Positions 45,169 to 50,824 of a DNA stretch of 64,000 nt are shown piece by piece. The DNA is taken from positions 1-64,000 of the forward strand of contig CAJOKD010000011.1 of assembly GCA_905235085.1 (NCBI GenBank). Reading direction: 5' to 3'. Position numbers and translations under genes: made by a program. The notes below the pieces were generated by a model, which saw nothing but the letters and a program-made list of their open reading frames with translations, was not told where the DNA came from and did not search any database. The stretch's first letter is position 1; every line of letters begins with the position of its first letter. This DNA is from an uncultured Bacteroidales bacterium. Lineage in GTDB: Bacteria > Bacteroidota > Bacteroidia > Bacteroidales > UBA932.

Positions 45169-46794
45169 TCAGTCATCCAGAAGGTCCTTCAGTTTGACGG
45201 CCTGGAACACAATCTGGGCAGTGCTGCCCTCGTAAAGGATTCCGACGGTCTGCTCGTCGATCATCGCCATACAGGAATATCCCCATCCTTGTTCTTCGTC
45301 CAGGAGCAGGGAATGCGGCCAGGTATTCCCGAGATCCTCGCTGCACTTGACAGTTATCATATTCCTTTGAGTACGGGAATCCGGATTGCAGAAAAGCAGC
45401 AGGTTCCCGGCTTTGAGAAGACTCGCCTGGCAGACAGGTTCCTGAAGCAGGTTGTTGGAGACGTGCTCTGTCCAGGTTTTGCCAAGGTCCTCTGTCACAA
45501 AGACTTTCCTGCAACGGTCATCGGTGCCGTGATTCCTCAGGTTGAGCATCAGGACGCCCGGTCTGATTTCAGCCACCTGGTCCTCGCATACGTGGTCCAC
45601 GGCCATATTGGAAACCGTCCAGGTCTCCCCTCCGTCCTTGCTGTACATTATGCCACCTGAAGGGACCTTGTCCTTGTCCCAGAGCTGTACAGGTACCACG
45701 AGAGTCCCGTCAAGCATCGTTATGCCCCTGCCGGGACCGCTGAAGAAGACCGCGGAAGCAGGATCTTTGAGCTGCGGAGTGAGGTTGACCGGACGCGACC
45801 AGGTCTTTCCGCCGTCACGGCTCCGGACAACCATCATCTGCCCTACGTCTATCGGGTCCAGTCCGTCCTTCGAGTTGATGATTATGGTCCTGCCATCGAA
45901 GCCGTGCCCCCAGATAGCGAATATGAATATGTCGCCTGTCCTTTCATCTACCAATATGCACGGGTCTCCGCAACCGTTCTGGTCTTTAGGCAGTCCTCCA
46001 TATTCACCCATATCCATCGCCACCTTCATCTTGCTCCAGGTCCTGCCCCCATCCCTGCTGACCTGGCTGCCGATGTCTATGTCCGACTGAAGGTCGAAAA
46101 AGCTGGTCCAGCGAATGTCGTATGCGGCAATGAGATCGCCGGATACAGTCCTGGAGAGTGCCGGGATGCGGTAAGAATCCGATCCGTCGTCACCATGCTT
46201 CCGCAGGGCGATCGCATACCGCCGCCCATCCGAAGGACCGTGTTCCTCGATCCCGCAATTGACGCCGCCGACCGACACCGAACCGACCTTGCAGGAGAAG
46301 GTATCGGCGAGACCCACCTTGGACGAGGCTACGCTCAAGCTTATGCAGAAATGATTCTCTCCCTTGACCAGTTCCCGGTCGAAACGCAGGACGGCATTCC
46401 CGGATGCAGGCTTGACCTTGCAGACCGTCATCGCAGACCTGGAAGCATACCAGGGAAATGCTCCGGCTCCCCACGACTTGGTGCTTTCCTTGAAGACATT
46501 GGACTTGGTCCTGGACCTTATCGGGGACACGGTCCCGGTATATACCAGACGCAGGTCCTTGACAGCCTTGAGAGGAATGCCTTCGAGTGAAACCTGCACT
46601 TCCCCGGACACCTTGCCCGAGACCTGGCGAGGAATCACTATCTCAGAAACTACATTGTACTCCCTGTCAAGGACAACCGGAATCCTGGGGTTATAGACAT
46701 CAACCGCCAAGGTTGCCAGGATGGACGTAAAGATGGTGGCAAGCATAATCAGATCATTATTTCTGCAATTTAAAAAATACCTCTCTTCCATCAA
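45169..46794 (-). CDS. Exo-alpha-sialidase (GH33-like, BNR repeats)
   Basis: YRIPAL (FRIP-like) motif and Asp boxes SRDGGRTWS, SRDGGKTWS, SKDGGETWT; actual start may be 46746 (MLATIFTSILATLAV). Confidence 0.92.
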   Translation of the reverse strand: MMEERYFLNCRNNDLIMLATIFTSILATLAVDVYNPRIPVVLDREYNVVSEIVIPRQVSGKVSGEVQVSLEGIPLKAVKDLRLVYTGTVSPIRSRTKSNVFKESTKSWGAGAFPWYASRSAMTVCKVKPASGNAVLRFDRELVKGENHFCISLSVASSKVGLADTFSCKVGSVSVGGVNCGIEEHGPSDGRRYAIALRKHGDDGSDSYRIPALSRTVSGDLIAAYDIRWTSFFDLQSDIDIGSQVSRDGGRTWSKMKVAMDMGEYGGLPKDQNGCGDPCILVDERTGDIFIFAIWGHGFDGRTIIINSKDGLDPIDVGQMMVVRSRDGGKTWSRPVNLTPQLKDPASAVFFSGPGRGITMLDGTLVVPVQLWDKDKVPSGGIMYSKDGGETWTVSNMAVDHVCEDQVAEIRPGVLMLNLRNHGTDDRCRKVFVTEDLGKTWTEHVSNNLLQEPVCQASLLKAGNLLLFCNPDSRTQRNMITVKCSEDLGNTWPHSLLLDEEQGWGYSCMAMIDEQTVGILYEGSTAQIVFQAVKLKDLLDD

Positions 46795-46851
46795 AGGTTT
46801 TTTTCTCTTTTGTCGGTTTATCGGTCGCTCCCGGAGCTCTGCAGGAACCTG

Positions 46852-46898
46852 TGGAAAAAACTGTGGAAAAATTTGGAAAGTAGTGGAAGAAAATGGAA
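46852..46898 (+). promoter_or_regulatory. Candidate MraZ operator: five TGGAA repeats phased at ~10 bp
   Basis: TGGAA at 46852, 46864, 46874, 46884 and 46894 immediately upstream of mraZ. Confidence 0.65.
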
Positions 46899-46907
46899 AA
46901 TAATTCC

Positions 46908-46915
46908 TACCTTTG
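46908..46915 (+). promoter_or_regulatory. Bacteroidota -7 element (TACCTTTG) for the dcw cluster
   Basis: TACCTTTG 26 bp upstream of the mraZ ATG. Confidence 0.55.
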
Positions 46916-46940: not shown

Positions 46941-47393
46941 ATGATCACATTCATAGGTGAATATTCAGCGAAGATAGACGACAAGGGGAGGGTTGTTTTC
47001 CCCTCGCCGTTCAAGTCGCTGGTCCCGGCCGAAGGTGATTCAAGGTTCGTAGTCAAGAAGGATATCTTCGAAGACTGCCTTGAGATGTACACCTACGAGG
47101 AATGGGAGCGCCAGTCTGAAGAGGTCAAATCGAAACTGAATTTCTTTAATCGTGCTCACGCCGCTTTCTGGAGAGAGTATATGCGCAACCGCGCGGTCGT
47201 CGAACCCGACGCCAAGCTCGGCCGCATCTCTATTCCCAAGAAGCTTCTGGAGTCAATTGGTGTAACGAAAGAGGTAGTCTTCTCGGGCAACGATTACAAG
47301 ATAGAGATCTGGGCTAAGGAACGGTACGAGGCCTCCGAGATCTCGAACGAGGAATTCTTGAACATCGCCGGACAGCTATCTCAGCAGAGGTAG
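46941..47393 (+). CDS. mraZ: Transcriptional regulator MraZ
   Basis: ITFIGEYSAKIDDKGRVVFPSPFKSLV; start of dcw cluster. Confidence 0.93.
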   Translation: MITFIGEYSAKIDDKGRVVFPSPFKSLVPAEGDSRFVVKKDIFEDCLEMYTYEEWERQSEEVKSKLNFFNRAHAAFWREYMRNRAVVEPDAKLGRISIPKKLLESIGVTKEVVFSGNDYKIEIWAKERYEASEISNEEFLNIAGQLSQQR

Positions 47394-47404: not shown

Positions 47405-48337
47405 ATGTCTGAATACCATACTCCAGTACTGCTCGAGGAGAGCATTTCCGCATTGATATCAGACCCGTCAGGGATATACGCCGACGTCACATTCGGAGGC
47501 GGTGGTCACACCGCCGGAATCCTTTCACGCTTAAATGAAGACGGTCACGTCATCGCCTTCGATCGTGACGGAGACGCTATCCGCAACAAAATCGAAGACA
47601 GCCGCCTTACGATGGTAAGGGCGGACTTCCGATTCATCCGCAATTTCGTCCTCTACGAGGGACGAAAGCTGGTAAAGGAAGGGCAGGATATCCTGCTGGA
47701 CGGCATCCTGGCCGACCTGGGTGTTTCCTCCCACCAGTTCGACACCGCGGACAGGGGCTTCTCCTTCCGCTATGATGCGCCGTTGGATATGCGGATGAAC
47801 CAGGAAGGAGGAATCACAGCCGCAGACGTGGTGAACGGATATTCCCGGGAAGACCTGGAAAGGATACTCCGCCTCTACGGAGAAGTGGACAAAGCCCGCA
47901 AGATTTCCCAGCTCATCGTTGCGGCCCGGATGGGATCGGCCATAACCACCACCGGGGAACTGGACAAGGCCATCGAATCTGCGCTCCCGAAATTCGCGGA
48001 GCACAAGTTCCTCGCGAAGGTCTACCAGGCCCTGCGCATCGAAGTCAACCACGAGATGCTCTCCCTGGCGAAGTTCCTCGAAGGAGCCGCGGATTCCCTG
48101 AAGCCCGGAGGAAGGCTGGTGGTCATAACCTACCATTCCCTCGAAGACAGGATGGTCAAGAATTTCATCAAGACCGGGAATACCGAGGGGAAGGAAGAAA
48201 AGGATATGTACGGGGTGGTACATTCCCCGTTCAAGGCAGTGAACCGCAAACCGGCATTGCCGACGGAAAGTGAAATATCGTCAAACACGAGGGCTCGCAG
48301 CGCAAAGCTGAGGGTCGCCGAAAGAACAGCAGAATAA
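47405..48337 (+). CDS. rsmH: 16S rRNA (cytosine1402-N4)-methyltransferase
   Basis: YHTPVLLEESISAL, DVTFGGGGHTAGIL, DLGVSSHQFDTADRGFSFRYDAPLDMRMN. Confidence 0.97.
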   Translation: MSEYHTPVLLEESISALISDPSGIYADVTFGGGGHTAGILSRLNEDGHVIAFDRDGDAIRNKIEDSRLTMVRADFRFIRNFVLYEGRKLVKEGQDILLDGILADLGVSSHQFDTADRGFSFRYDAPLDMRMNQEGGITAADVVNGYSREDLERILRLYGEVDKARKISQLIVAARMGSAITTTGELDKAIESALPKFAEHKFLAKVYQALRIEVNHEMLSLAKFLEGAADSLKPGGRLVVITYHSLEDRMVKNFIKTGNTEGKEEKDMYGVVHSPFKAVNRKPALPTESEISSNTRARSAKLRVAERTAE

Positions 48338-48712: not shown

Positions 48713-50824
48713 ATGGCCGTACAGTCTCAGAACGCTACCAAGAAGGAGAGGGACAGGATCGCGATGATCCTGTACTACCTCTATGCCTTCTTCCTTATCC
48801 TGGCCTTGATCCTGGTCGGGCGCATAATCTATATCCAGTGTTTCTGGAAACTGGACAAGGACGTCGCCAAGTACTTCATCCCCAAGAGCACGAAGAGCGT
48901 CATCGAGCCGAACCGAGGAGCCATCATCGGCTGCGACGGGAAACTGCTCGCCCTCTCTACCCCTATGTACCAGCTTTATATGGACTGCACGGTGAGGAAG
49001 GATTATTTCTCATCCAAGGGCTCGAAGGGCAAGGATATGGAAAAGGAATGGCTTGACAATGCCAACGGTTTCGCGAAGACGTTCTCATCCCTTACCGGCG
49101 ACAGGACCGACTGGTACAGGCTCATCGTAAAGGGACGCAAGGACGGCAACAAGTACCTGAAGCTCGGACCTGCGATCGACAGGGAGACTCTTGTCAAGCT
49201 CCAGGAGAGCACGATGATGGGAGACGGCAGGAACAAGAGCGGAATCATCATCGAGAAGAAGGACTCCCGCCAGTACCCGTACGGTACCCTCGCAAGGAGG
49301 ACCATCGGCTACGTCAAGGACAACAGCAATTCCAACGGCAACAACCATATCGGACTGGAGGGGAAATACGATTACATCCTTCACGGGAAAGAAGGTGAAA
49401 TCTGGCTCAGGCCTACCGACAACAGGGAAAGGATACAGAACTACGACAGTACCTACGTCAAACCGGAGGACGGGATGGATGTCAGGACCACCCTCGACAT
49501 TACGATGCAGGACATAGTGGACAGGGCCCTCAGGAGGCAGATCGAGGAGAACAAGTCCATAGAAATGGGCTGCGCGATCCTTATGGACGTGAAGACGGGA
49601 GCCATCCGTTCGATGGTCAACCTAGTCAGGGATTCCACCGACTGGAGTCTGGCCGAGACGTACAATATGGCCATAGGACTGGGTTCGGAACCGGGTTCGG
49701 TATTCAAGGCCACCACGCTCACCACCGCCCTTGAAGACGGTTACATCAAATCCCTTGACGAGACCATCCCTACCAACAACGGTTTCGTGCCGGGACATCC
49801 CAACTATCCACAGGACGACCACGTAATCAAGATGAAGGAGATATCCTACCTGCACGGATTCGAGATCTCCTCCAACTATGTATTCCGCTACATCGCGGTC
49901 ATGAACTACGAGGACGATCCGAAGAGATTCCTCGACAAGCTGTACCTGTACAAGCTGGGACAGGCTTTCGACTTCGACCTGGAAGGCCTCAGGCAGCCTG
50001 TCATCCCTTCACCGGACAGTCCGCTCTGGTCCAATACCGCCCTGGGTTCGATTGCGATGGGATACACCGTCCAGGTCACTCCGCTCCATATCCTTACCTT
50101 CTACAACGCCATAGCGAACAAGGGCAAGATGATGAAGCCATACCTGGTGGAAGATATCGAGCAGCACGGGGTGGTCAAGAAAAAGCTGGGGCCGAGCGTT
50201 CTGAACGCATCCATCTGCTCAAAGGCTACGGCGGACACTATGCTCAGGGCGATGAAGGCCGTGACCTCCGAAGGTACGGCCACGAGGCTCAAGGATGCCA
50301 AGGCCCAGGTAGCAGGCAAGACGGGAACTTCAAGGCAGGTACTCTCGAAAGAGGAAAGGCAGAGATTCGGGATGTCGAACCCGTATGTCACGAAAGACGG
50401 CAGCTATCATAACCTGGCCACCTTCGTGGGATTCTTCCCTGCCGACGATCCAAAATACAGCGCCATAATATGCCTTAAGTCATATCTCATCAGAGGCAGC
50501 GTCTACGGAGGAGTCCTCCCTGCCGCAGCTATGCGGGAGATAGTCGACGCCCTGTATTCCCTCGACCCTGAATGGGGCCGCGAAGTACGCTCCGAAGGGC
50601 AGGTGAAGCAGATGACCTTGGACCGCCAGGTCCCTGAAAAGGACGGTTCCAAGGAGACCCTCGTCCCTGACGTGGGCAACCTGGGACTGAAAGATGCGAT
50701 GTTCATCATCGAAAACAGCGGACTGAAGTGCAAGTATACCGGCACCGGGCACGTGGCAGGACAGACTCCGGCCGCGGGCCAGAAAGCCGGAAAGGGTTCA
50801 ACCGTAACCATAACGTTGAAATGA
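48713..50824 (+). CDS. ftsI: Penicillin-binding protein 2/3 (FtsI) with C-terminal PASTA domain
   Basis: Transpeptidase motifs SVFK, AGKTGTS; C-terminal VPDVGNLGLKDAMFIIENSGLKCKYTGTGHVAGQTPAAGQKAGKGSTVTITL. Confidence 0.95.
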   Translation: MAVQSQNATKKERDRIAMILYYLYAFFLILALILVGRIIYIQCFWKLDKDVAKYFIPKSTKSVIEPNRGAIIGCDGKLLALSTPMYQLYMDCTVRKDYFSSKGSKGKDMEKEWLDNANGFAKTFSSLTGDRTDWYRLIVKGRKDGNKYLKLGPAIDRETLVKLQESTMMGDGRNKSGIIIEKKDSRQYPYGTLARRTIGYVKDNSNSNGNNHIGLEGKYDYILHGKEGEIWLRPTDNRERIQNYDSTYVKPEDGMDVRTTLDITMQDIVDRALRRQIEENKSIEMGCAILMDVKTGAIRSMVNLVRDSTDWSLAETYNMAIGLGSEPGSVFKATTLTTALEDGYIKSLDETIPTNNGFVPGHPNYPQDDHVIKMKEISYLHGFEISSNYVFRYIAVMNYEDDPKRFLDKLYLYKLGQAFDFDLEGLRQPVIPSPDSPLWSNTALGSIAMGYTVQVTPLHILTFYNAIANKGKMMKPYLVEDIEQHGVVKKKLGPSVLNASICSKATADTMLRAMKAVTSEGTATRLKDAKAQVAGKTGTSRQVLSKEERQRFGMSNPYVTKDGSYHNLATFVGFFPADDPKYSAIICLKSYLIRGSVYGGVLPAAAMREIVDALYSLDPEWGREVRSEGQVKQMTLDRQVPEKDGSKETLVPDVGNLGLKDAMFIIENSGLKCKYTGTGHVAGQTPAAGQKAGKGSTVTITLK

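Follow-up and report, generated by a model that had tools for sequence, protein, structure and literature searches.

A predicted four-unit MraZ operator and an adjoining DnaA-like box at the dcw promoter of an uncultured Bacteroidales bacterium

Genes and repeats at the start of the dcw cluster

The window, which is the whole stretch of 64,000 nucleotides analysed here, contains mraZ followed by rsmH and an FtsI-type gene, which is the usual start of the dcw cluster. A repeat array lies immediately 5' of mraZ-rsmH-ftsI, and a sialidase-like gene is encoded divergently on the other side. The features of the region are the following:

45169-46794, minus strand: divergent sialidase-like gene, its likeness judged by eye from the translation
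46850..46858, minus strand: DnaA-box-like element, TTTTCCACA (plus strand TGTGGAAAA), which fits TTWTYMACA and includes the TGGAA at 46852
46860..46869, plus strand: predicted MraZ operator unit 1, ACTGTGGAAA, from a periodic model fitted on 24 genus loci
46870..46879, plus strand: predicted MraZ operator unit 2, AATTTGGAAA, from the periodic model on the 24 genus loci
46880..46889, plus strand: predicted MraZ operator unit 3, GTAGTGGAAG, from the periodic model; it covers the expected -33 region
46890..46899, plus strand: predicted MraZ operator unit 4, AAAATGGAAA; TGGAA in 24/24 genus loci
46908..46915, plus strand: Bacteroidota-type -7 promoter element, TACCTTTG
46941..47393, plus strand: mraZ, with the ATG at 46941 picked by homology and two PF02381 domains above the cut-off
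47405..48337, plus strand: rsmH/mraW (TIGR00006, 294 bits, above the cut-off), the next dcw gene after mraZ
48713..50824, plus strand: FtsI-type penicillin-binding protein; the top matches are penicillin-binding families, under their cut-offs, and the position is that of the dcw cluster

The top NCBIfam matches of the mraZ product are MraZ equivalogs, under their strict cut-offs. Both DxxxR motifs are conserved and the protein matches solved MraZ chains (PDB relatives). The mraZ frame is open back to an ATG at 46893, within operator unit 4, and homology puts the true start at 46941.

Positions 46850-46915 read TGTGGAAAAAAC TGTGGAAAAATTTGGAAAGTAGTGGAAGAAAATGGAAAATAATTCC TACCTTTG. As the initial annotation had reported, five TGGAA start at 46852, 46864, 46874, 46884 and 46894, in steps of 12, 10, 10 and 10 bp, and the -7 element begins 9 bases after the last of them, which is 8 bp from the last 10-mer unit. 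The spaced pair TGGAA(N5)TGGAA (TGGAANNNNNTGGAA) is found three times in the 64-kb window, every copy at the array, while shuffled sequences gave a mean of 0.15 and a maximum of 2. Furthermore, exact three-unit TGGAA(N5) matches are found only at the array across the 2.35-Mb genome. In the window and in the fitted model, the array consists of four direct repeats that have an exact 10-bp period and a TG[G/T] core, as in an MraZ operator. A second TTTTCCACA match, at 46862-46870, overlaps unit 1.

The array and the upstream box among relatives

The comparison set contained 86 mraZ upstream regions, 24 from members of the genus and 62 from other loci of the order and class, and a contiguous 10-bp unit model was fitted separately to the genus set and to the order/class set. 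The genus set gave the unit AAA[A/G]TG[G/T]AA, and the order/class set gave AAAGTGG[T/G]AA. This comparison, which the initial annotation had proposed as a check, found the array conserved: four TG[G/T] units at exact 10-bp steps are present in 22/24 genus loci and at least three in 53/62 of the other order/class loci, and runs of at least three units were found in 75/86 mraZ loci overall. In dinucleotide shuffles, runs of at least three units were found in a mean of 0.2 loci (genus) and 0.7 loci (class). The exact 10-bp register is kept across about 40 families, and some class members show five in-register units. The distance from the last unit to the -7 element is also conserved: it is 8-9 bp in 24/24 genus loci, and among class loci with a recognisable -7 element it is 7-9 bp in 40/41.

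Within the genus, unit 1 is TGGAA in 22/24 loci and the G/T alternation is mostly found in units 2 and 3: unit 2 is TGTAA in 14/24 and TGGAA in 9/24, and unit 3 is TGGAA in 15/24 and TGTAA in 6/24. The cores are TGGAA/TGTAA in the genus and mostly TGGTA/TGGGA in the rest of the class. TGGAA had initially been described as a probable lineage-specific variant of the MraZ repeat; it is typical of the genus together with TGTAA, but judged from these alignments the general unit is TG[G/T], of which TGGAA is a local form.

The motif TTWTYMACA has only four matches in the 64 kb, the box at 46850-46858 among them. At the same slot, genus-mates show TGTTGATAAC (L028), TGTTAATAAC (L029), TGTGGATAAC (L020), TGTTGAAAA (L023 and L036) and TGTTAAAAAC (L037); a TGG core is missing from most of these slot sequences, and their spacing is in most cases 12 bp. 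Most of the class shows an opposite-strand box at the slot, GTTWTYAACA (GTTATCAACAAAGTGG or GTTTTCAACAAAGTGG), immediately next to unit 1. TTWTYMACA on either strand, starting 3-22 bp 5' of the array, was found in 42/58 class loci, 23 of them sharing exactly one offset, and in 13/24 genus loci, with a background of 5% (class) and 2% (genus) in equally long windows farther upstream; the motif was chosen after the alignments had been viewed, and these box figures describe a pattern, not the test of a prior prediction. Counted by family, the box is present in 28/40, a number safer than the locus statistics given shared ancestry. The strict match is missing in 11/24 genus loci, several of which have near matches.

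Order and class genomes without detectable mraZ were searched for rsmH, and these loci, as well as those of the sister classes, were examined after the motif choice. Eight mraZ-less loci were readable upstream of rsmH. They represent fewer than eight independent and certain losses of mraZ, since a single genus contributes three of them and one genome has a completeness of only 61%. No three-unit array was found upstream of rsmH in any of these loci (8/8), which ties the array to MraZ itself and not to the dcw promoter generally. Three mraZ-less genomes of the same order show TGTTGATAAC or TGTTGAAAAC before rsmH without any array, which indicates that the box does not depend on MraZ; in the remaining five loci there is no such box near rsmH.

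In the sister classes of the phylum (24 loci), the array is shorter, with two to four units, and there is no box just upstream of it; therefore, the combination of box and array seems specific to class Bacteroidia. In several sister-class loci (within L180-L206), the array seems to be placed in the leader, 3' of the promoter, and not over the -33 region, with promoters judged by eye.

Identity of the box and number of operator units

The minus strand of 46850-46858 (TTTTCCACA) matches the DnaA-box nonamer TTWTNCACA, in which position 6 is A and not C in many relatives. The slot variants are TTATTAACA, TTTTCAACA, TTATCAACA, TTTTCCACA and TTATCCACA, the last being the canonical DnaA box. We take a DnaA box to be the most likely identity of the element, with some reserve. 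It is a tenable, though less favoured, alternative that the slot is the conserved site of a regulator other than DnaA, since a sequence alone does not name its binding protein, the commonest form in the class (TTATTAACA) deviates from the E. coli consensus (TTATCCACA), and the dnaA upstream regions examined contain few boxes (7 seen vs 2.1 expected, a weak enrichment). However, TTATCCACA and TTTTCCACA are both found at the same slot, and the whole spectrum of variants recurs elsewhere, namely between the divergent mfd and ruvB, between ftsA and ftsZ (G078) and before a dnaE-like gene (G033).

Five members of the genus, among them the genome from which the window comes, have 3-6 boxes in a 400-bp stretch of the mfd-ruvB gap; the cluster of DnaA-like boxes lies at L145 1501-1690 (G000:C10:81096-81290) and is also seen in L141, L142, L143 and L144. 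Over the 600 kb sampled in G016, the one member whose skew was followed at contig scale, this box cluster is the densest; the minimum of the cumulative GC skew is about 10 kb away from it, the skew being weak. Box clustering and this weak skew make it a candidate oriC, and origins in class Bacteroidia need not adjoin dnaA. Paired boxes are found about once per genome in 14/32 genomes. The ftsA-ftsZ gap of G078 holds a triplet of DnaA-like boxes (L148 1501-1547), an inverted pair is located just upstream of the dnaE-like gene of G033, which shows a PHP-domain start (L138 1501-1608), and close to a contig end the window's own genome has TTATCCACA and TTATCAACA at a distance of 12 bp (L041 356-376, G000:C33). 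The DnaA of the lineage has Q at what we take to be the position of E. coli R399, so DnaA specificity may differ in this lineage.

The initial annotation had placed all five TGGAA on the same helix face. Since 46852 and 46864 are 12 bp apart, the first TGGAA is out of phase with the 10-bp steps, and in relatives its slot holds a different element. That all five are nevertheless MraZ units, the 12-bp step being tolerated through bending or a flexible ring, is unlikely. In its favour, the sequences at 46850 and 46862 are identical (TGTGGAAAA), an MraZ ring has more than four subunits, and five units in register are found in some class members. Against this, many genus-mates have TGTTGATAAC, TGTTAATAAC or TGTTGAAAA at the slot, without a TGG core and with similar spacing to the array, the box elsewhere in the class lies on the opposite strand, and it persists without an array in mraZ-less genomes. 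Five equal MraZ units are therefore less likely than four and a separate box, and we count four array units because the first TGGAA sits in a separate, probably DnaA-like, box. This box also resembles an MraZ unit, and weak use of it by MraZ could occur.

It is very improbable that the element serves the divergent sialidase-like minus-strand gene (45169-46794) instead of mraZ: the open frame of that gene begins about 56 bp from the upstream box, but the spacing from the array to the mraZ promoter is fixed across the class. Although the region is A-rich, a chance or low-complexity origin of functionless repeats was rejected as practically negligible on account of conservation in exact register over about 40 families against the 0.2-0.7 loci in shuffles, the uniqueness of the three-unit match in the genome, the fixed promoter spacing and the loss of the array together with mraZ.

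Predicted control of the dcw promoter

Positions 46860-46899 are best explained as an MraZ operator of four units in 10-bp phase that overlaps the dcw -33 region, with a separate DnaA-like box upstream, and on sequence evidence we hold this combined assignment to be probable. The operator reading follows from the conservation, the register, the fixed spacing to the -7 element, the loss together with mraZ and the fit to the published MraZ site. The initial proposal of an MraZ operator overlapping the dcw promoter and its -33 region is upheld by the same evidence, except that its five units become four and a box.

In the predicted arrangement, the TG[G/T] units would be held on one helix face, each by a different subunit of a single MraZ ring, and MraZ bound to the four units would cover the -33 region and block sigma binding. 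MraZ would then regulate its own operon, most likely by repression. Activation is also possible: in Neisseria elongata, dcw expression falls when mraZ is deleted (PMC9395523), although MraZ is a repressor in M. genitalium (PMC8475190). DnaA, if it binds at 46850-46858, may modulate the same promoter, and at this adjoining box it could compete with MraZ or assist it. Since unit 1 also matches TTTTCCACA (46862-46870), MraZ and DnaA might compete for unit 1 itself.

An MraZ operator is a known kind of element. The E. coli MraZ operator reportedly consists of TGGG repeats; by this account, the array in the window shares its TGG core, 10-bp period and autoregulatory position, and differs in its larger number of units, in the A (not G) that follows TGG, and in its Bacteroidota promoter. 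The Mollicutes MraZ site is (AAAGTGKN3)3, where K is G or T, and is supported by EMSA (Fisunov 2016, as quoted in PMC5282649 and PMC8475190). As far as that quoted description goes, both lie at the dcw promoter, 5' of mraZ, and both are built of direct repeats in 10-bp steps around a TG[G/T] core. The array units fit (AAAGTGKN3)n including the G/T position, at which the genus shows its alternation (PMC5282649). Compared with the site as quoted, the array described here has four units and TGGAA/TGTAA cores, lies over a Bacteroidota -33 region and has a DnaA-like box adjoining it.

The ftsL operon of B. subtilis starts with a mraZ homologue. DnaA binds the ftsL promoter of this species (Goranov 2005, as cited in PMC8203912), and the two cases are alike, to the extent of that citation, in having DnaA, here predicted, at a dcw-cluster promoter that drives division genes. 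In contrast to the ftsL promoter as cited there, the putative box described here adjoins an MraZ array, in a near-fixed geometry conserved across one class.

A literature search, which reached only a minority of subscription papers, found no earlier description of the conserved combination of box and array. We give roughly even chances to the broader proposal that the dcw promoter of class Bacteroidia is a conserved composite in which a DnaA box abuts an MraZ array, and through which DnaA and MraZ would jointly control the division genes and couple replication to division. Regulation of dcw appears little studied in the phylum Bacteroidota, and the DnaA-like box beside the MraZ operator, present in 28/40 families and kept in three mraZ-less genomes, is a directly testable candidate.
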